Below are positions 13,281-42,219 of a stretch of DNA of 46,832 bases, piece by piece (within the stretch, counting starts at the first letter, position 1; each line of letters opens with the position of its first letter). A program made the position numbers and the translations under genes. Source of the stretch: a virus; the IMG/VR virus record IMGVR_UViG_3300046665_000308, positions 1 through 46,832 of that record. One strand, 5' to 3'. A model generated the notes under the pieces. That model made no database searches and was not told the origin of the DNA. It saw nothing but the letters and a program-made list of their open reading frames with translations.

Positions 13281-16200
13281 TTAACGCTTTGGTGCAATGT
13301 TAAAGTTCTGCTTTGCGGCTTTGTTAATTCGGCTATTCGGATTGTTAAATCCTGCCACCATAGTCTGCTCTGCAACTTCCCCAGCAATCTGTCTGATACG
13401 AACATCCAACGACCCATCGTCATTTCTAGTCACGTCAGCCGTTTGACCTTCCATGACGTAGACATTTACGATTGGCTCTAGGACAGTGGCACTACCATTA
13501 GTAGGATTAGAGTTAATGGCGTTGTACTGGTTCATCTCACGCTGTGAAGCCAAGAAGTTTGTTAAGTCTTGGTTTTGACGTGGAGAAACAACACGTTCAC
13601 CTTTATCTAGAAGATAAGTCGCCTCTTTAGGAACATAGTCTTTACCACCATGAAAGATGCCTGATACCGACTGGATATTCGAAACAATGCTTGCAGTGCT
13701 TGCTGCGACACTTGCCATAGCAGCCAAGTTGTACGGGAAAGGATTTGCGGCTGCTTCAGCAATACCTGTCTGAATAGCCATAATTGAACGGGCAATAGCA
13801 AAAGCCTGTTCTGCTGCGAACATAATTTTATAGGCTTTAGATTGCTCTCCACCCATAGTTTTGAACATGTCTGCAACAGATCCTGTAATTTGCTGACCAT
13901 ATGACATTTGAAGGTCGAGTTTTGCTCTTTGGTACCGCTCTTCAATATCAAGAAGCTTACTCTTACCTTCTTCTTCAGTTATGAGATTGTTTTTCATGGC
14001 CTCCTCAACAACACTTGATCGAGATTCTTTGCTCTTATCAAGTTGCAGGAAGTCATTTGTCTCACTTAGTTCGCCATTCAATCCTCTAAAGTTATCCCAT
14101 GCATTTCTCCTTTTTCCTTGGACTTCGAAGTCCTCAGACCTATAAGAAGCATTCAAAAGTTGATTTTGAAGTACTGGGTCTCTAGTAGTCTTAATTATTT
14201 CTTCTCTTTCGAGTCGATACCTCTCCTTCATATACTCTATTTCATGCATATAAGACTGTTTAGCTTGTAATACTCGCTGCTCTCTAGCCAACTGAATTAA
14301 GCCTTGTTCATGCTGATATTGCTGATCTAGATATTTAATAGCCTCATCACGCTGATCTTTACTTAATTCAATATCATGAGCCGCATTAAACTTCTTGCGG
14401 TCAAAATTATCTTTAAGTAATTGCTCCTCAGTCATGTTGAACTGTTTGAAGTCATCAAGTTTGGTTTTCAGAGCTTGCTGGGCTATGGCAACATCATTGT
14501 CAGCTCGTGCTTGCAATTCTGCTTTAATTTCAGCTTTGCGTTCAGGTGTGAAGTTAGCTTTATCAACATCCTCCAATTTCTTGGCAAGATCATTTCTAAT
14601 CTTGGTCACTTCATTGGCTACATCATTTTCCAATTGAAGTCGCAACTTCGCTTGTTCTTCTGCCATTTTGGCTGAGTCTTCAAGCATTTTATTGAAATCT
14701 TTGGATGTGATGTCCCCCTCTGAATAGCCGTTCTTACCTGCCGCAAAGGACTTTACATTCGAAAGGTAGTTTCTAGTTTCCTTGAATCCATATGCCTTCC
14801 CAGTTCTTACATTTTTAGGACCAGCGTTGTAGGCCATTACAGCCTTCTCCACATCTCCCTTGAACATCTTAAGAAGATCAGAAACATACTTAATCATTCC
14901 ATTAATACTGGATTCTTCACTCTTAACATCGACACCATATTGTTTAGCAGTGCCTGGCATAAATTGCGCGAGGCCTTGTGCACCAACTGGTGAAGTTAGA
15001 AGTTTCCCTTTTCGATACGTATCTCCTCTACTCTCTTGCATAATCATGCCTTCAATCAGGCCCTGTGGTATTCCAGCAGCAGCAGCCTTTCCTGAAATAT
15101 CATATTTGTTAGATAGTGCTTGAACTTTGGCATTAACAGAAAGAACTTTTTGCTGTTTCTGTAGCTCCTTGGTGCGTTCCTTATCTTTATTTACAAGGTT
15201 TTCAAGTGCACTTTCCTGATCAACAATCCCTTTAATAACTTTCTTTTGCTCGTCAGTGACACTAGCAACACCCTTCTTCTGGTTTTCACGGTATGTCTGC
15301 AATAAGAGTTCAGCTTCTTCAGCAGATTTTCCATACTTACCAATCAACAGAGATTTAAAATCGGCATCCCATTTGCGATCTGTAAGCGATTTATTGATGT
15401 CTTTTAGCTTTTTATTAAGCTCAGTTACATCTTGAACCGCTCCCTTTGCACCTTGACTAACATCATTGAAACCTGCTTTTGCATTGGCACCTGAAGAACG
15501 AACCTGATTTAACTCAGAGTTTGTCTGTTTCACAGCTTTAGAATTCTCATCAACTTTCTTTTTACTATCAGTCAATTGATTGATCTGATCTGCATTTATA
15601 AAAGAAAGCTGATTTAATTTACTAAACGCTTGGTTAACATCAATTACACCAGTTTTTAGCTCTGCCCAGATTCGATAAGCTTCAGCACTTTGTTTGTTGT
15701 TATCGCTAATAGATTGGGTAAGTAACAAAAACTCATTCTGAGACTTCGATAATTGAGCATTTTGCAAACTTAGCTGCTTTGTCAGTTCACCTTCCGCTGC
15801 ACGCTTTTGGGCACCTTCAAGCTTCATAAGTTCATCAGCTGCCATACCAGCATAACGCGACTGCTTTTCAAGCATATCATTGGCCTTATCGCCATTGTCT
15901 CGCATCAGAAGATATCCAGCAGCTAAACTTGCAACAGTAATGCCAATACCAACAGGCCCACCAAGCAAACCTAAAAGTCGTGATCCGATCCCAACACTCG
16001 CTGCACCTGCTGCTGCTGATCTTGCTTGCGCACTTGCTAATGCACCTTCGGCCACCGCTAATTCTCTGGTAACTTGTGCTTCAATTTTCTTTAACTCAGC
16101 CATACGAGTTAAAGTCGCAGTTCTGCCTTTCTCAGTAATTTGTGATTTTAGGCGCTGTACCTCTAAAGCTTTCTCAGCAGCAATAGCAGCTAAAGTTGCT

Positions 16201-17222
16201 TGGGTATTTGTAACAACTGCTTGAGTGCTAATTACCTGTTGAGCAGCTGCTGCTCGGTCTGCCTGTAATGCTGTGTATTGTGCAAAAGTTTGTGCGGCTA
16301 ATTCTTTAGTTTTAGCAGCTACTGCCACACCTGAAGCATAAATTGCTGGTATATATGTTCCTAACCAATAAGCACCACCTACCATCATTGCAGAGGTTAA
16401 AACATCTAGGTTCCCCGCTAAAGTCTGAATAGAACCAGCTAATACCTGTGCCGCACCTGAACCCTTACCTGCCTCGCCTACAAATTTGGTAATTTCATTA
16501 TTTAAAACGGTTAGTGATTGACCAATTGTAAGATCAGTTTTTGAGAACAATTCATCAACTGACGCTTTTGCATTTGTTAGTGCTTTTACTAAAACATCAC
16601 TTGTAATTTTCCCTTCTTGGGCCATTGATCTAAGCTCACCAATGTTCACCCCCAAACCATTCGCAATGGCTTTTAAAAGACCCGGTGCTTGCTCAGCAAC
16701 CGAGTTAAATTCTTCACCTCTAAATACACCAGATGCTAATGCTTGCCCAAACTGCACAAGAGCAGCATCTGCTGAAGCGGCACTAGCTCCACTAATTGCA
16801 ACTGCCTTAGATACAGTGTCTGTTAGCTCGGCAGTTTTTGCCATGCTGATATTTAATGTTTTAGAGTTGTCTTGAAAGCGCTGGTATACCTGAATGACAC
16901 TATCCCAAGCTGAACGAGTATTTTGAGCAATACGGAAAGTATCTTCAGTTGCTTTATTTAACTCAATCTGACTGCTGGTTACTAACTTCAGACGGTTTTG
17001 AAGACCTGTATAAGTATCCATCTTAGAGATTGCTGCACTCACAGTAACCAAACCTGCCATGTATCCAGCAAGCTGACGTGTTGCTACAGACAACCCATCC
17101 ATTGATTTGGTTGCAAAGTCACCTTTACGCTCAATGCTATCCAATTCATTGCCTAGATTGCGCGCATTACGCTCTGCATTTTTAGCATCAATTACAATGA
17201 CGAGACGTGATTCTTGTGCCAT
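13281..17222 (-). CDS. Tape measure protein with lytic transglycosylase domain (lambda H position)
   Basis: The 1313-residue protein sets tail length and is injected with DNA. The N-terminus (RNLGNELDSIERKGDF, about 15-30) and the first 260 residues match the tape-measure N-terminal type. A glycine/alanine-rich hydrophobic stretch lies near 405-440 (LLGLLGGPVGIGITVASL). A transglycosylase SLT domain sits near 700-830, with catalytic Glu in MQESRGD, then GAQGLAQFMP and AYNAGPKNV; it would open the cell wall at entry. Long charged coiled-coil regions lie on both sides. It follows the immI-like module rather than the GT gene directly. Confidence 0.95.
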   Translation of the reverse strand: MAQESRLVIVIDAKNAERNARNLGNELDSIERKGDFATKSMDGLSVATRQLAGYMAGLVTVSAAISKMDTYTGLQNRLKLVTSSQIELNKATEDTFRIAQNTRSAWDSVIQVYQRFQDNSKTLNISMAKTAELTDTVSKAVAISGASAASADAALVQFGQALASGVFRGEEFNSVAEQAPGLLKAIANGLGVNIGELRSMAQEGKITSDVLVKALTNAKASVDELFSKTDLTIGQSLTVLNNEITKFVGEAGKGSGAAQVLAGSIQTLAGNLDVLTSAMMVGGAYWLGTYIPAIYASGVAVAAKTKELAAQTFAQYTALQADRAAAAQQVISTQAVVTNTQATLAAIAAEKALEVQRLKSQITEKGRTATLTRMAELKKIEAQVTRELAVAEGALASAQARSAAAGAASVGIGSRLLGLLGGPVGIGITVASLAAGYLLMRDNGDKANDMLEKQSRYAGMAADELMKLEGAQKRAAEGELTKQLSLQNAQLSKSQNEFLLLTQSISDNNKQSAEAYRIWAELKTGVIDVNQAFSKLNQLSFINADQINQLTDSKKKVDENSKAVKQTNSELNQVRSSGANAKAGFNDVSQGAKGAVQDVTELNKKLKDINKSLTDRKWDADFKSLLIGKYGKSAEEAELLLQTYRENQKKGVASVTDEQKKVIKGIVDQESALENLVNKDKERTKELQKQQKVLSVNAKVQALSNKYDISGKAAAAGIPQGLIEGMIMQESRGDTYRKGKLLTSPVGAQGLAQFMPGTAKQYGVDVKSEESSINGMIKYVSDLLKMFKGDVEKAVMAYNAGPKNVRTGKAYGFKETRNYLSNVKSFAAGKNGYSEGDITSKDFNKMLEDSAKMAEEQAKLRLQLENDVANEVTKIRNDLAKKLEDVDKANFTPERKAEIKAELQARADNDVAIAQQALKTKLDDFKQFNMTEEQLLKDNFDRKKFNAAHDIELSKDQRDEAIKYLDQQYQHEQGLIQLAREQRVLQAKQSYMHEIEYMKERYRLEREEIIKTTRDPVLQNQLLNASYRSEDFEVQGKRRNAWDNFRGLNGELSETNDFLQLDKSKESRSSVVEEAMKNNLITEEEGKSKLLDIEERYQRAKLDLQMSYGQQITGSVADMFKTMGGEQSKAYKIMFAAEQAFAIARSIMAIQTGIAEAAANPFPYNLAAMASVAASTASIVSNIQSVSGIFHGGKDYVPKEATYLLDKGERVVSPRQNQDLTNFLASQREMNQYNAINSNPTNGSATVLEPIVNVYVMEGQTADVTRNDDGSLDVRIRQIAGEVAEQTMVAGFNNPNSRINKAAKQNFNIAPKR

Positions 17223-17284: not shown

Positions 17285-17782
17285 TTAAAGGTTTGAAGTA
17301 TCTTGTTCAATTTTAGTGTTTGGGACATATCTAATAGACGTTCTAACAATAGAATTGGGAATATATGAGTGTGAAAGCTCAATTGTTGTTTCTTTAGTTT
17401 TCCATGAAACCCTATTTAATGACTTAAAAACTGGCTCACCATATTTCTGCGTTAATAGTCTATGCAACTCATTGAATTGTGATAGAGCAATAACTCTATT
17501 GTTTTGCTCATTACTAACTATATTGGTTTGAATTAAGTGATCTTTATCATCAAATATGAAATTAGCAGTATATGTTCCAGTTGAAATAGCTATACCATCA
17601 ATTTTCACCTTACCAACAGCATTAAGGTATTGAACTGGTGGGATCTCTATAGCCTTCCCTTTTTCAGCCTCAATAACTTGTGCTGGAGTCATTCCCCATT
17701 CAGTATTCCCATATGCATTACCTTTAGCAAAACTTGCTATTGGTAAAAGAATCATTGTTATAAGCAAAATAATCTTTTTCAT
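17285..17782 (-). CDS. Secreted periplasmic protein, moron candidate (165 aa)
   Basis: A Sec signal peptide is clear: MKKIILLITMILLPIASFA-KG, with cleavage after residue 19. The mature part (about 145 aa) has NTEWGMTPAQVIEAEKGKA and a beta-rich body, resembling bacterial periplasmic proteins of unknown role rather than virion parts. Terminator-like hairpins flank it on both sides (17785-17810 and 17241-17266). The ribosome-binding site GAGGG lies inside the upstream hairpin, 7 bases from the ATG, so translation may be gated. A lysogenic-conversion gene is the best guess. Confidence 0.75.
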   Translation of the reverse strand: MKKIILLITMILLPIASFAKGNAYGNTEWGMTPAQVIEAEKGKAIEIPPVQYLNAVGKVKIDGIAISTGTYTANFIFDDKDHLIQTNIVSNEQNNRVIALSQFNELHRLLTQKYGEPVFKSLNRVSWKTKETTIELSHSYIPNSIVRTSIRYVPNTKIEQDTSNL

Positions 17783-17833: not shown

Positions 17834-18631
17834 TTAAGCGGCAAAGTAGTCAGTTAGATTAATTCCATATACTGCTTTCCATGCATCTTTATGGTAAATC
17901 TTTACAGACCCATAATTAGCATCAGCAATGTCTTTAATCTTCTTACCATTTTCCGTGCACCATTTTTTCAATTCACGCCACTTAAATGATTTACCAGTTT
18001 TACTTTCAACCGCTTTAATTGATGCATAGTTCCTAGATTCACCAATCTGCTCTTTCAACTTCTCAGCTTGACGACTCTTAACAGAAGCAGTTGCCATTGC
18101 TGTAGCCGTTTTCTTGTCACTAATTTCAGCTTTTGTTGCAATTGCATGATCTCTCTCACGTGCAATCAATTCTTTTTGCTCTACACTCGCAACGAATGCT
18201 TTAAGAGCTTCAAGATATGTTTGCGGCATGAGTTCGTTAATGCCAGTGTTTGTAGATGCTTCCTTCTTATTAAAGTAGCAATCTTCCAACTGCTCGAAAA
18301 CTTCCCATGCTTGCTCGGTATCAAGAATCTTAGCGTGACGTGCTGCACCACGTTCTGTCCAAAGCATAAGACGAGCTGTTTTCTTTGGAACATAGTGACT
18401 GTCAGTCACCATGTCCTTAAATTCCTTTAATTCAGCGCCTTCAAGTTTGAAATAATGCTTGCCCTCAATAAATCGTTCACTATTTCGTGAAAAGTTCTGC
18501 TTAATATTAACTGGCTCTGTTCCATACAGATCAGCCAATTGCTCTGTTAATACAACAGGCATTGACTTGTATTCAATAATTGCTGTTTGCTTGTTGGCAA
18601 CTTCCACTAGTTGATTAACTGCTGCATTCAT
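17834..18631 (-). CDS. ORF6N-domain antirepressor-family protein
   Basis: The N-terminal part (about 15-115) is an ORF6N/KilA-N type domain: YKSMPVVLTEQLADLYGT, IKQNFSRNSERFIEGKHYF, and LMLWTERGAARHAKIL. The middle is a charged helical region (about 150-200) and the C-terminus looks like a small domain (FKWRELKKWCTENGKK), as in Ant-type proteins. Such proteins bind and inactivate phage repressors. It is the last gene of the operon below the Arc-like gene and overlaps the gene before it by 4 bp. In the P22 immI comparison it takes the antirepressor role. Confidence 0.85.
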   Translation of the reverse strand: MNAAVNQLVEVANKQTAIIEYKSMPVVLTEQLADLYGTEPVNIKQNFSRNSERFIEGKHYFKLEGAELKEFKDMVTDSHYVPKKTARLMLWTERGAARHAKILDTEQAWEVFEQLEDCYFNKKEASTNTGINELMPQTYLEALKAFVASVEQKELIARERDHAIATKAEISDKKTATAMATASVKSRQAEKLKEQIGESRNYASIKAVESKTGKSFKWRELKKWCTENGKKIKDIADANYGSVKIYHKDAWKAVYGINLTDYFAA

Positions 18632-19014
18632 GACATTAGCCCTCCATTTACCGAAGCAATTTTGATTTTTCTACTTTCAGCTAGTAGAACCTCAGCATCT
18701 TCTTTCAGTTTGCAAACTGCATTAGCTTGCACACCGAGTGAATGGATTAGCCAACCAATATCATTAATGGCTTCAATACGAACTTCATCAGTTACATGAG
18801 CAAGCAGTTCACCTATTGCACTAATACCCATTAATATTGGTGTATTTGCGTTCTCAGCAGCTTTACTCACATTTTCTAGAAAGTCCTCTTCTTCATTTGT
18901 CGCTGCAACTTTTTTACAAGCCACTTTTTCAAATAAAGCGTCTGGTGTTTGAGTGATTAGGTCTAGAAGGTCTGGAACCTTGTCACTTTTAAATTGGAAT
19001 GGTATAGTACCCAT
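18628..19014 (-). CDS. Hypothetical protein in the first Ant-operon position (128 aa)
   Basis: A helical soluble protein with two Cys in the centre and C-terminal half (CKK, VCKL). I recognise no family. It is first in a two-gene unit with the ORF6N gene (4-bp overlap), with AGAGGAC before the ATG. That ribosome-binding site lies exactly opposite the predicted antisense RNA 19015-19078, so its translation, and by coupling that of the ORF6N gene, may be the target of the RNA. Confidence 0.72.
   Translation of the reverse strand: MGTIPFQFKSDKVPDLLDLITQTPDALFEKVACKKVAATNEEEDFLENVSKAAENANTPILMGISAIGELLAHVTDEVRIEAINDIGWLIHSLGVQANAVCKLKEDAEVLLAESRKIKIASVNGGLMS
18980..19008 (+). promoter_or_regulatory. 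Strong plus-strand promoter of a sar-like antisense RNA
   Basis: TTGTCA (18980-18985), 17 bp, TATAGT (19003-19008), with TGG directly before the -10 (extended -10). Both hexamers match the sigma70 consensus at 5 of 6. It lies inside the start of the minus-strand gene 18628-19014 and points against it. Confidence 0.7.
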
Positions 19015-19078
19015 AGTTTATAGTCCTCTGTGACACAACTGAACCTTGTTTAATCTTGGCGGATGGCAAGGTTTTTTT
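19015..19078 (+). ncRNA. Predicted sar-like antisense RNA between Arc-like and Ant operon genes
   Basis: The RNA would start near 19015, just outside the start codon of the minus gene at 19014, cover that gene's ribosome-binding site (AGAGGAC, near 19026-19033), and end at a terminator: CCTTG (19044-19048), an 18-base spacer, CAAGG (19067-19071), then seven T. At about 64 bases it is close to P22 sar (68-69), which lies between arc and ant and represses ant translation. Promoter, size, place and target all fit; transcription is not shown. Confidence 0.6.
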
Positions 19079-19092
19079 GTGCCTGTTAAATT

Positions 19093-19257
19093 TCATGCTT
19101 TCGCACTCTCTTTGGTTTGTAAAAATTGTTTAATCGCTTGATTGATTAAATAATTAAGCGATCTATCTTCTTCTCGCCCTCTTTGTTTTAAAGCCTCATG
19201 ATCCTTAGCATCTAAGAATCTTAATTTATATTGCTGACCTTTCTGATTAATACTCAT
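19093..19257 (-). CDS. Arc-like ribbon-helix-helix repressor (54 aa)
   Basis: A 54-codon frame encodes MSINQKGQQYKLRFLDAKDH, then HEALKQRGREEDRSLNYLINQAI. This is the Arc/Mnt layout: a short beta strand (QYKLRF), helix A (DHEALKQRGREE) and helix B (SLNYLINQAIKQFL). AGGAGG lies before the ATG. It reads away from the plus gene 19375-19776, which belongs to the same family, and its promoter lies in their shared operator. In P22 Arc is cotranscribed with ant and limits it; the same order holds here. Confidence 0.82.
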   Translation of the reverse strand: MSINQKGQQYKLRFLDAKDHEALKQRGREEDRSLNYLINQAIKQFLQTKESAKA

Positions 19258-19278
19258 GCTTCCTCCATAACATCATTT

Positions 19279-19339
19279 AGGTACGTTTATAATGTACCTC
19301 TTTTATGTCATTGTCAACATCAAAGAGGTACTTTATGAT
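19279..19339. promoter_or_regulatory. Face-to-face overlapping promoters and operator of the Arc/Mnt-like pair
   Basis: Leftward promoter: TTGACA on the minus strand (19312-19317), 17 bp, CATTAT (19289-19294). Rightward: TTGTCA (19311-19316), 17 bp, TATGAT (19334-19339). The two -35 boxes share the same bases, so only one promoter can be used at a time. GTACCTCTTT (19294-19303) and AAAGAGGTAC (19322-19331) form a perfect 10-bp inverted repeat; another AGGTAC lies at 19279-19284. Each promoter holds half-sites, as expected for RHH dimers. Confidence 0.75.
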
Positions 19340-19374
19340 GAGTATGTTATTTTTGCGGTATATGGTTTATTTCA

Positions 19375-19776
19375 ATGAGTGAGAATCAAAAAGACCCTCA
19401 ATATAAGTTGCGTTGGAATGAAGAATTACGTGACAAAGTTATGAACTCAGCAAAAGAAAATAACAGATCAATAAATCAGGAAATCATTGCTCGTCTAGAA
19501 GAGAGCTTAGACCCAAAAGAAAAAATCGATATCAGCAATAAAGTTCATGTTACTCTTTTTATTGATCATGATATTGATGCTCCATATGGTATAGGGTTTG
19601 GTGAGTCACATTTGTATTTACAATTTGAGCCAAACAGAATCCCTGTTAAAGGGGATCTCCTAGAAGTTGATACGATGGAGGGTGGTTCAGTCATGCTTGA
19701 AGTCGCTAAAAGAATTATCAACACGCAATCTAGCAATTATTATCAAGTAATACTCAAAATGACTAAACCCCAATAA
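19375..19776 (+). CDS. Arc/Mnt-like DNA-binding protein with extra C-terminal domain (133 aa)
   Basis: The N-terminus (about 8-47: DPQYKLRWNEELRDKVMNSA, NRSINQEIIARLEESL) is an Arc-type ribbon-helix-helix. The C-terminal half (from about 55) is a beta-rich domain of unknown role (IDHDIDAPYGIGFGESHLYL). It is the only plus-strand gene between umuC and cI, so it can be expressed in the lysogen, like Mnt in P22. It ends at a bidirectional terminator that it shares with the convergent GT gene. Confidence 0.85.
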   Translation: MSENQKDPQYKLRWNEELRDKVMNSAKENNRSINQEIIARLEESLDPKEKIDISNKVHVTLFIDHDIDAPYGIGFGESHLYLQFEPNRIPVKGDLLEVDTMEGGSVMLEVAKRIINTQSSNYYQVILKMTKPQ

Positions 19777-19800: not shown

Positions 19801-20555
19801 TGTCGCCTTCTTATGCGCCTCATCTAAGAACATATCGTCGAGTGTAAAGATACAGTCATTAAATATGTAGCGCTCAACGGGTAGTTCGTATTGCTCAACA
19901 TAAGCATTAATTGAAGCAATATCTAACGCCAGAGGAACGCCTTGTTCATAGCGTCTAGATCTTGCAATTGTGTTGTATGCAGAAAGTATGGCGTTTGCTA
20001 CATAGGAATAGTCTGGCGCATCAGGCAGCTTTACACCGAGGGCTTCTCTTTGCTTTTTTTCGTGCTCCGTGAGCCCCGCGTATTTGTTCGCGTAGGTGTA
20101 GAGGGTTGTGACTTTCCCACAACATCATCTCGATATTGATTGGCTTCAGATTGGATCTTTTCAGATTCAGTACGGATAAATGACCAGATTGAAACGCCTA
20201 AATCACCCATATTTAGCAACTTGAAAGCATTCTCACCATTGAACGTGGGTTCTGTTTTAACTAGATCACCTTCAGGATCTTCTTCAACAAAAACTACCCC
20301 CTTCCAATCTTCAATTAGATGCGATGCTACTGCTTCTAAAACCAATTCATGAAAGAGTTTATCTTCTGCTGTAGCCTTTGTTACATCAAAACCTTTAGCA
20401 GAAATTTGATTGTTTGCTCGTTCAAGTGCTACTTGGTAAGGCTTATATCCAATGCCTCGGATCTTGAACTCAGCAAGCACATTACCTTCTTTATCTTTAT
20501 ATCCGCGCCACAAACTGACGTCTTTATTTCTTTGAATATTGACTTCAAGAGCCAT
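19786..20555 (-). CDS. Tail assembly chaperone GT, made by programmed -1 frameshift
   Basis: Ribosomes that slip at 20112-20118 leave the G frame after residue 148 (VVGK) and continue in an open frame of 108 codons (VTTLYTYANKYAGLTEHEK... to KKATKKAL), giving about 256 residues. The slippery site reads GTG GGA AAG in the G frame, so the heptamer is G GGA AAG, the site used in lambda G-GT. In lambda G and GT keep tape measure and tube protein together during tail assembly. The T part shows the usual NKYAGLT-type start. Confidence 0.88.
20031..20555 (-). CDS. Tail assembly chaperone G (lambda G-like)
   Basis: The unshifted product, 174 aa, follows the tail tube gene and precedes the tape measure as in lambda. 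It starts with a beta/alpha region (MALEVNIQRNKDVSLWRG) and ends with a low-complexity Ser/Thr/Arg/Lys tail (TPTRTNTRGSRSTKKSKEK) read from bases that encode the T domain in the other frame. The odd tail composition is explained by that double use. GGAG lies before the ATG. Confidence 0.85.
   Translation of the reverse strand: MALEVNIQRNKDVSLWRGYKDKEGNVLAEFKIRGIGYKPYQVALERANNQISAKGFDVTKATAEDKLFHELVLEAVASHLIEDWKGVVFVEEDPEGDLVKTEPTFNGENAFKLLNMGDLGVSIWSFIRTESEKIQSEANQYRDDVVGKSQPSTPTRTNTRGSRSTKKSKEKPSV
20112..20118 (-). other. -1 ribosomal frameshift site GGGAAAG
   Basis: On the minus strand the heptamer GGGAAAG is in register (GTG GGA AAG) with the G frame. Frame arithmetic confirms that a slip of one base back enters the T frame that ends at 19786-19788 with no stop in between. 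Confidence 0.88.
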
Positions 20556-21904: not shown

Positions 21905-22462
21905 TCAAATGCCCTCACTTTCAAATAGACATGGCTGAATTTGTCGATCAACATTAGCAATAGCTGTTGTCAGGCAATCTCGTTGCTTTTTCCAAGCAGC
22001 TAGACCTTTACCACACGAACTAGCTATTTCTTTCTCACAATCAAGTTTTGCAGTTAATGCTTCACGCTGCTGAATCAAAGCAAAGTAGTCTGTTTGTAAT
22101 AGTGTTCTTGCTTCAAAGAATGATTTTACTAACGCTTTTTTGAAATCGATTACGCGTGGACTGTTACGCATCAATGTCATTAAGAAATATGCTTGCTGTT
22201 CATTTAGAATTGCATAACGAGTGTGGCGACCTTGATTTGAATTTCGGACATCAAATCCAGAATTCGCCATTTCAAATGCGGAATTCGATGATTCAAATCT
22301 GACCCTTCCAAACTCCTGAATATCAGGTAGATAAGTTCGAACCAGTTGGATAACAGACTTATGTGTTAATCCTAGACCTAGTGCAATTTGTAGAGTGGTC
22401 GTTGTTGGTTCGCCTTTTTGAACATCAACTAATTTAGTTACAGGATTAAATTTCGCATTCAT
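21905..22462 (-). CDS. Rha-family phage regulatory protein
   Basis: 185 aa from ATG 22462 (TAAGGAG before it); an upstream in-frame start at 22516 lacks a good site. The N-terminal domain (TTLQIALGLGLTHKSVIQLVRTYLPDIQEFG) and RHTRYAILNEQQAYFLMTLMRNSPRVIDFKKALVKSFFEAR match the pRha family. Some Rha proteins interfere with growth in hosts lacking IHF, and related domains occur in antirepressors. It is the second antirepressor-type gene in the late operon, inside the U-V interval. Confidence 0.87.
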   Translation of the reverse strand: MNAKFNPVTKLVDVQKGEPTTTTLQIALGLGLTHKSVIQLVRTYLPDIQEFGRVRFESSNSAFEMANSGFDVRNSNQGRHTRYAILNEQQAYFLMTLMRNSPRVIDFKKALVKSFFEARTLLQTDYFALIQQREALTAKLDCEKEIASSCGKGLAAWKKQRDCLTTAIANVDRQIQPCLFESEGI

Positions 22463-41008: not shown

Positions 41009-41094
41009 AAACATTTGTTTAGTACATGGTAAACATCATGTTTCCTATTGTCAAATCATTTGTTTAACACAAAGTGTTTACTTTTTTGGATAAT
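41009..41094. promoter_or_regulatory. OR region: PR, PRM and regularly spaced operators
   Basis: Three operators are centred about 22.5 bp apart: AAACATTTGTTT (41009-41020), AAACATCATGTTT (41031-41043) and AATCATTTGTTT (41054-41065); a fourth palindrome AACAC-AAA-GTGTT is at 41066-41078. PR (minus): TTGACA (41049-41054), 17 bp, TACCAT (41026-41031), with the second operator in its spacer. PRM (plus): -10 GATAAT (41089-41094), no good -35, so it probably needs CI for activation. Confidence 0.8.
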
Positions 41095-41101
41095 GTGTTT
41101 A

Positions 41102-41821
41102 ATGAAAACCTTGGATACTGTGATGAAAGACGAAAAGCCAGCTCACCCTTCGGTGCTAAGACTTTTAGAAGCAAGTGGTATGACACAAGAAGAAACTGCC
41201 AAGGCTATTGACGAATTCCCACAGACAATTACAAACTGGAAGAAACGTGGGGTGTCAAAGGCAGGCGCACTTAAAGCAGCTGCTATTTTTGGTGTTGGTG
41301 CTAACTGGATTCTTAAAGGGGAAGGAAGTAAATCACAGGGAAATGTAACTAAAGTAGTAGAGTGGGATTCAGACACTCCAGTAGATAATGACGAAGTGGA
41401 AATACCTTTTTATAAAGAGGTATTAGTGTCATGTGGATCGGGGTCTTTAGCTGAAATGGTCGGCAATGAAACAAGAAAATTAAGATTAAGTAAGGCGACC
41501 TTAAGGCAATATGGTGTTGAACCTTCAAACGCTTATGCGCTAACGGCATTTGGAAACTCAATGTCTCCTGTTATTAATAGCGGTGCTACCGTATATGTTG
41601 ATGTAGGCAGAACGAATATTGTTGATGGTAAAATTTATGCAATTAACCATGGGGGTTTGTTTAAATTTAAGTATTTGTACAGGCTGCCAAAAGGTGGCGT
41701 TAAGATAGTTAGCGAGAACAAGGAAGAGTACCCAGATGAATATCTTACAGCTGAGGAAGTAATAGATCAGGAATTTTGTGTAGTTGCTTACGCATTTAAC
41801 GTACAGAACTCACTTCCGTAA
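41102..41821 (+). CDS. cI: CI-type repressor with S24 self-cleavage domain
   Basis: The frame opens upstream, but ATG 41102 lies at about the +1 of PRM with no ribosome-binding site, as in leaderless lambda cI; ATG 41123 is an alternative. The N-terminal helix-turn-helix is MTQEETAKAIDEFPQTITNW. Cleavage is predicted at Cys111-Gly112 (VSCGSGS); the dyad is Ser153 (GNSMSP) and Lys190 (FKFKY), 37 apart. It represses PR and PL and should be cut after DNA damage. 239 aa. Confidence 0.93.
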   Translation: MKTLDTVMKDEKPAHPSVLRLLEASGMTQEETAKAIDEFPQTITNWKKRGVSKAGALKAAAIFGVGANWILKGEGSKSQGNVTKVVEWDSDTPVDNDEVEIPFYKEVLVSCGSGSLAEMVGNETRKLRLSKATLRQYGVEPSNAYALTAFGNSMSPVINSGATVYVDVGRTNIVDGKIYAINHGGLFKFKYLYRLPKGGVKIVSENKEEYPDEYLTAEEVIDQEFCVVAYAFNVQNSLP

Positions 41822-41955: not shown

Positions 41956-41973
41956 TATCTCACTAGATAACAA

Positions 41974-42007
41974 AAAAGCCCCTAGCTTTCGACGGAGAGG
42001 GACTTTT
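41974..42007 (+). promoter_or_regulatory. Leader hairpin of the PL operon
   Basis: AAAAGCCCCT (41974-41983) and AGGGACTTTT (41998-42007) pair with one mismatch and lie just after the predicted start of PL RNA (near 41962). The 3' arm contains the first gene's ribosome-binding site (GAGAGGG) and ends in TTTT, so it may terminate or block translation, or be an antitermination site. Function is inferred. Confidence 0.4.
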
Positions 42008-42012
42008 ACTCA

Positions 42013-42219
42013 ATGAGTGAGATAAGTATGAATCAAAGAATTGAAAAGTACAAGTTTAGCCAAGCCTTTAAGGATGGCTCGAAAGCATTCGTAGCTTTCT
42101 GGGTTATCACCTTCATTGCATTTGCATTCTTAAAAGGCTGTGCAGACGAACAAGCAGCAAACGAATTCAAAGCAAAACAGAACATGTATGTTCGCGTTCA
42201 GGTTGAGGGGGTGAAGTGA
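42013..42219 (+). CDS. Small membrane protein, first gene of the PL operon (68 aa)
   Basis: One membrane helix (AFVAFWVITFIAFAFLKGC, about 26-44) between charged ends; Met6 is a possible alternative start. It lies where lambda has N, but it is not basic or Arg-rich like N. It may be a superinfection or host-interaction protein. The end overlaps the next start (TGATG). Confidence 0.68.
   Translation: MSEISMNQRIEKYKFSQAFKDGSKAFVAFWVITFIAFAFLKGCADEQAANEFKAKQNMYVRVQVEGVK

Follow-up and report, generated by a model that had tools for sequence, protein, structure and literature searches.

Background

The sar RNA of phage P22 is a textbook antisense RNA, and in phage P1 an antisense-type RNA, c4, holds the antirepressor off by way of a small upstream coding gene, icd, that is coupled to ant, with c4 arising from the same strand and the same promoter as ant. 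In the immI region of P22, Mnt, Arc and sar control ant, and immI itself is a moron carried in the late operon (PMC2629481). Removal of immI lowers lysogeny by P22 (PMC11016777). A precedent for immunity conferred by a prophage antisense RNA is found in the Salmonella prophage BTP1, whose antisense RNA STnc6030 brings about exclusion of the same phage (PMC7067206), although its target and sequence differ from those of the RNA considered here. In this report we describe a locus in a stretch of viral DNA of 46,832 nucleotides (IMG/VR virus record IMGVR_UViG_3300046665_000308, positions 1 to 46,832), the whole of which is called "the window" below. With high confidence we take this locus to be a P22 immI-type switch for secondary immunity, with a predicted antisense RNA of ~64 nt lying over the start of a gene for a 128-aa protein. 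A PMC search on Acinetobacter phage antisense RNA and antirepressor returned nothing on this locus, and the RNA cassette, which recurs across Acinetobacter phages, seems not to have been described before.

Gene content and placement of the module

The window derives from a temperate siphophage of the Acinetobacter type, with an integrase, a CI-like repressor, a CII-like regulator and tail genes on the minus strand. The genes for the tail chaperone and the tape measure are separated by a non-morphogenesis block in the order mnt-like, arc-like, 128-aa, ORF6N and 165-aa (Table 1), of which window positions 17834-19776 are the immI-like module. An initial annotation, prepared from the letters of the sequence, had proposed the leftward order arc - 128 aa - ORF6N and a pair of divergent RHH-type genes, and the ORF calls together with the Pfam and PHROG matches bear out both proposals. 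It had also placed the module between the GT gene (tail chaperone) and the tape measure gene, which is correct, and had counted this as a difference from P22, which it is not, since P22 immI is likewise a late-operon element (PMC2629481). As a separate observation, a Rha/ORF11CD3 regulator at 21905-22459 (-) among the tail genes of the window gives the late operon a second regulatory insertion; our covariance model R1 (see below) gives only weak scores around it.

Table 1. Coordinates and supporting matches of the module, its predicted control sites and the neighbouring genes, in window positions
Feature	Position	Strand	Details
Tape measure gene	13281-17222		
165-aa gene	17285-17782	-	
ORF6N-domain antirepressor gene, 265 aa	17834-18631	-	Pfam ORF6N, E 8.5e-23; phrog_1760 anti-repressor, E 6e-50
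128-aa gene	18628-19014	-	phrog_14904; directly under the predicted antisense RNA
Psar-like promoter (predicted)	18980-19008	+	-35 TTGTCA 18980-18985, spacer 17, TGG 19000-19002, -10 TATAGT 19003-19008; inside codons 3-12 of the 128-aa gene
Predicted antisense RNA, ~64 nt	19015-19078	+	complementary to leader and ribosome-binding site of the 128-aa gene
Intrinsic-terminator hairpin	19042-19078	+	arms AACCTTG 19042-19048 and CAAGGTT 19067-19073, T7 19072-19078; loop with CUUGGCGGA
arc-like RHH repressor gene, 54 aa	19093-19257	-	phrog_3180 Arc-like repressor, E 1.1e-12
Leftward (arc - 128 aa - ORF6N) promoter	19289-19317	-	promoter scan; TTGACA 19317-19312, CATTAT 19294-19289
Operator	19289-19336		inverted repeat 19289-19308 / 19317-19336; both -10 boxes covered
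Rightward (mnt-like) promoter	19311-19339	+	promoter scan; TTGTCA 19311-19316, TATGAT 19334-19339
mnt-like gene, 133 aa	19375-19776	+	Arc-type RHH N-terminus, variable C-terminus; Pfam Arc, E 1.2e-13
Tail chaperone gene	20031-20555		
CI-like repressor, primary immunity region	41048-41821	+	phrog_4 transcriptional repressor, E 7.5e-44

The predicted structure of the 128-aa protein is a helical hairpin, disordered at its N-terminus (mean pLDDT 78); the protein had no Pfam, PDB or fold match, and the fold and PDB searches with the predicted model gave no informative relative. The ORF6N gene starts within the stop of the 128-aa gene (a 4-nt overlap, ATGA), and the two genes are therefore probably translationally coupled; in relatives the coupled slot is occupied by Bro-N, Rha or AntA proteins instead of ORF6N. 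The initial annotation found no obvious Ant homologue in this region, and the P22_AR_N domain is in fact absent, but the module does not lack an antirepressor candidate, because ORF6N proteins belong to PHROG anti-repressor families. The protein of the window combines an N-terminal ORF6N domain with an anti-repressor family match, as expected of an antirepressor of the ORF6N class.

The two RHH genes are divided by an operator region in which, as had been noticed at the outset, the bases of the -35 boxes are common to both promoters. An inverted repeat extends over both promoters, as was also noticed; its arms are 20 bp long with two mismatches rather than 10 bp. Similar anatomy is widespread among relatives, where a divergent ORF lies on the other side of arc in 94 of 97 loci and is nearly always an RHH gene. 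The -35 boxes of divergent promoters overlap in 44 of 81 related intergenic regions, as compared to 13% of shuffles, and strong inverted repeats occur in 49% of these 81 regions and in 2% of shuffles.

A predicted antisense promoter inside the start of the controlled gene

Inside the start of the 128-aa gene lies a plus-strand promoter, TTGTCA-17-TATAGT, whose TGn element reads TGG, and the RNA predicted from it would cover the ribosome-binding site over about 64 bases; at the sequence level, both features are as the initial annotation described them. A promoter scan confined to the window does not rise above chance (8 sites found, 11.6 expected), and the significance of this site comes from the comparison of ~100 modules, in which there is one site per allele and always in the same place. 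In all six families of first gene that we found behind the element, the opposite strand carries a -10 hexamer (TA-N-A-N-T or a close variant) at 3 nt from the start codon, and this hexamer is mostly TGN-extended; some P22_AR_N genes begin three codons earlier and have the same -10. For background, 683 other ORF starts in the same loci carry the hexamer in 8.3% of cases and the extended form in 2.6%. Most of these background hits are supplied by a gene starting MNMM[TS], seen in viral-contig loci such as L046, L071 and L148, in which an extended hexamer resembling a -10 falls at the corresponding place on the antisense strand. The -35 boxes are poor in the KilA-N-like and P22_AR_N members (2-4 of 6 bases), so that the promoter of these members may rest on the extended -10.

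The -10 box falls in codons 3-4, and for this reason otherwise unrelated proteins share the N-terminus M-x-[SNT]-[IL], to which P22 Ant (MNSI) also conforms, with TGCTATACT ATT CAT at the corresponding place. The constraint can be seen in codon usage as well. Among 19 distinct alleles of the 128-aa gene there are 48 degenerate codons for invariant residues, 39 of which vary synonymously; the four promoter codons (I4 ATA, P5 CCA, D11 GAC and K12 AAG) are invariant in all 19, and our own arithmetic puts the probability of this by chance at ~6e-4. Only 9% of the isoleucine codons in the window phage are ATA.

The plus-strand terminator that the initial annotation placed near 19044-19078 is present, with a T run that ends in the gap between the arc-like and 128-aa genes, just short of the arc stop at 19093. 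It could be argued that this hairpin acts in the mRNA instead, adjusting from the 5' leader how well the 128-aa gene is translated or how stable arc mRNA is, and that the plus-strand promoter is incidental; the sense leader does fold well (z -2.63), and its ribosome-binding site lies outside the main stem. Such an explanation is very unlikely, however, as it leaves unexplained both the frozen codons and the fixed place of the -10 box in six unrelated genes, and as the U tract accompanies the hairpin on the plus-strand side only, the sense side having no T run.

Stem covariation and loop exchange

The stem of the hairpin varies between alleles and remains paired. Pairing was counted from the hairpin ends, because a MAFFT alignment of all stem classes misaligns the arms by one base, and by this count the first six stem positions are paired in 186 of 186 cells across 31 hairpins, the maximum among 2000 column shuffles being 170. 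The exchanges comprise G-C to C-G at position 3, C-G to T-G to T-A at position 5 and C-G to T-A at position 6; within the second stem class alone the covariation is weak. We also considered, and dropped, the possibility that the hairpin is read through as a conserved leader peptide, as the frame changes between alleles.

The loops differ among alleles. Antisense loops of the AACC class, to which the window belongs, read CUUGGCGGA or UUGGUAG, and those of the AAGC classes read the reverse complement UCCGCCAAG or one of the variants CGUCCAAAG, CGUCGAAAG, CCUGCAAG and UUUCCAGAC. Since the loops are reverse-complementary between classes, the UUGG-type face belongs to the antisense RNA of one class and to the mRNA of the other. 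UUGG agrees with the YUNR U-turn rule of known kissing systems (PMC6562991), as a short motif that provides a lead rather than a test. The likeness to the plasmid copy-number and hok/Sok antisense systems with YUNR loops, namely a UUGG-type loop in one of two complementary strands, is likewise one of a short motif only.

The covariance model R1, which was built from AAGC-class stems only and without the AACC class of the window, places the window element first in the window (19000-19077, 34.2 bits, E 3.5e-5). The same model gives 17 bits (E 0.14) to another sar-like hairpin with a U tract at window 41972-42061 (-), whose loop CCGTCGAAAG is that of alleles L113 and L153. This second hairpin is antisense to the leader of a gene for a small membrane protein of 68 aa (42013-42219 +, phrog_11843), beside the CI-like repressor, and the region around it is similar in ~30 phages.

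Recurrence and reassortment in related phages

The 128-aa gene is present in 36 viral contigs and in 17 named Acinetobacter phages (including TCUAN1, Ab105-2phi, phi5013-M1 and Acba_1), with the same arc and mnt neighbours, and the block lies between the tail chaperone and tape measure genes in four of the four named phages whose annotation was read. In Ab105-2phi and Acba_1 some members are annotated as Mnt or antirepressor, and the RNA is absent from the annotation. A first scan of genome contigs with the 128-aa profile, which used overly strict patterns, gave no match. At least 119 stretches of viral contigs contain a 19-bp anchor located at the arc stop, and after removal of duplicates there are 88 distinct loci in which the element is flanked by an arc-like gene and by a first gene that varies widely in kind. 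With genomes added, the collection reaches 99 distinct modules, 21 arc clusters and 52 hairpins, in which the alleles counted are related to one another and are not independent events; nearly all of the modules are in Acinetobacter phages. The anchor occurs 21 times in genome contigs, and the element accompanies it in 15 of 15 Acinetobacter occurrences and in none of the other six, which are chance hits.

Six unrelated families of first gene stand behind the element: 128-aa, P22_AR_N, KilA-N-like, Bro-N, 96-aa and AntA-like. Sixteen of the 52 hairpins occur with two or more antirepressor families. The 128-aa gene is paired with 10 arc clusters and 14 hairpins, as would be expected from an exchange of the specificity-determining parts. 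The 96-aa proteins (MSNITH/MNNITQ; L048, L069, L071, L073 and others) take the place of an antirepressor in the sar-controlled slot and may form a further family of small antirepressor-like proteins.

Searches with R1 extend this distribution. Matches were obtained in 28 of 119 Acinetobacter genomes, and the strong ones that lack the anchor precede antirepressor genes and are new loci; five low-scoring matches (L209, L210, L211, L213 and L219) proved to be ordinary terminators. Across 195 genomes of the order, R1 gave no match outside its reference genome. Among 22 genomes of a second, non-Acinetobacter genus of the Moraxellaceae there are two sar-like elements, one of which (L220:1501-1589) precedes a P22_AR_N gene and the other (L225:1501-1585) has a CI-like HTH gene on one side and an AntA antirepressor on the other (E 0.003). 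In four loci (L202, L221, L188 and L203) the order is mnt, arc, a first antirepressor, the element, and then a second antirepressor or small gene, with the element guarding the second gene; the cassette is therefore not tied to arc.

These tandem loci bear on the suggestion that the terminator merely stops stray rightward transcription from entering the repressor genes, with no regulatory RNA being made. Terminator-like hairpins are indeed common between phage genes (2.4 are expected by chance in this stretch), but no plus-strand gene lies upstream of the terminator, a promoter immediately precedes it in every allele, and in the tandem loci the element travels with the second antirepressor gene and does not stay at arc. 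This suggestion appears highly improbable to us. We assign the same very small likelihood to the idea that the conservation reflects only the recent spread of one recombination junction, consisting of the 3' end of arc and the leader, and not the function of an RNA. A 15-bp stretch at the arc stop is common to most loci, and the parts have plainly been shuffled, as such a spread would have it; yet the changes in the stem are compensatory and the loops diversify while the promoter, its spacing from the start codon and the U tract stay, and there are elements without the 19-bp anchor, two of them in the other Moraxellaceae genus. The initial annotation had also allowed that the locus might be an independent version of immI, which does not hold in the sense of an isolated one: the window carries one among many alleles of a large element family in Moraxellaceae phages, in which the repressor pair, the antisense hairpin and the antirepressor are swapped by recombination.

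Comparison with P22 immI, Rfam sar and P1 c4

The resemblance to P22 immI is extensive. In both, divergent genes for the mnt and arc RHH repressors have overlapping promoters and arc is first in the controlled operon; in both, an antisense promoter overlaps the opening codons of the next gene and has its -10 in codons 3-4, and its RNA, as predicted here, covers the ribosome-binding site, is terminated before arc and fills the gap between the two genes. Both are late-operon elements secondary to a separate primary immunity region, which is of the CI type here, and P22 and one Acinetobacter stem class even have the same AAGCCC/GGGCTT stem. The proposal of a second, P22 immI-like switch with a sar-like RNA is thus supported in its layout, in the place of its promoter, in the cover of the ribosome-binding site and in the terminator of the arc-gene gap. 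The differences are that the gene under the RNA in the window encodes the new 128-aa protein, followed by ORF6N, rather than P22 Ant (homologues with P22_AR_N stand behind the element in Acinetobacter relatives such as L160 and L054), that the window RNA ends in a strong U tract and is not recognised by the model of P22 sar, and that the module here belongs to a large multi-allele family in Moraxellaceae siphophages.

Rfam RF00262 (sar; gathering cut-off 43 bits) served as a measure of the relationship between the RNAs. In P22, the positive control, its match spans exactly the interval from the arc stop to the ant start (L163 532-599, minus strand, 97.8 bits). The RNA of the window has the same place, a similar size (68 nt in P22 and ~64 nt here) and the same strand opposite the antirepressor leader, but the model gave no match at the window element or at one tested relative, a scan of the window at a lax threshold gave only chance hits, and in ten Acinetobacter genomes there was none above the cut-off and the inspected matches were not at antirepressors. 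The best match in those ten genomes, L226 (G096:C8:2171385-2171449), scores 33.3 bits, below the cut-off, and is not beside a recognised antirepressor. The element would work like immI but is outside the sar family as Rfam defines sar, and its controlled gene in the window is not P22 Ant. It also differs from P1 c4-icd-ant, as the window RNA would be made from a separate promoter, opposite in strand to the antirepressor gene, and as RHH repressors are present.

A model for the switch and its implications

From these features we infer a bistable switch that controls an active antirepressor. In a lysogen the mnt-like protein would probably be made and would repress the leftward promoter through the shared operator, and after infection the arc-like protein, as the first product of that promoter, would probably limit its own operon. 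The promoter within the opening codons of the 128-aa gene would give rise to the antisense RNA ending at the 19042-19078 terminator, whose apical loop (CUUGGCGGA) may kiss the complementary loop of the mRNA leader before the two RNAs pair across the ribosome-binding site. By analogy with P22, such pairing should block translation from the 128-aa start and, by coupling, that of the ORF6N antirepressor, which, if unblocked, would disarm a repressor; the CI-like repressor of the primary immunity region is its likely target. A lysogen would make the RNA in trans, and so the matching of alleles could decide which superinfecting phage is silenced.

We read the locus as a member of a widespread sar-like antisense family that guards swappable antirepressor genes and whose loops are probably allele-specific. 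A broader proposal, which we offer tentatively and as slightly short of an even chance, is that Moraxellaceae phages share hypervariable, exchangeable antisense-RNA cassettes that serve as allele-specific immunity determinants. The stem class and the kissing loop, some loops being exact reverse complements of others, would set which incoming antirepressor mRNA a prophage silences, in the manner of plasmid incompatibility groups; the cassette would have moved between at least six unrelated antirepressor families, the N-termini of which would have converged on a common form because of the -10 box in their codons; and the 128-aa protein would either be an antirepressor of a new sort or act as the coupled partner of ORF6N, Bro-N, Rha or AntA proteins.

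The N-terminal signature and the leader together provide a simple means of finding further members of the family. With ~100 natural alleles that differ by swapped stems, loops and targets, what had been a single example would become a system in which antisense specificity, heteroimmunity and the cross-talk between prophages can be compared, and the family has a bearing on how the prophages of Acinetobacter, including those of A. baumannii, are kept quiet or induced.
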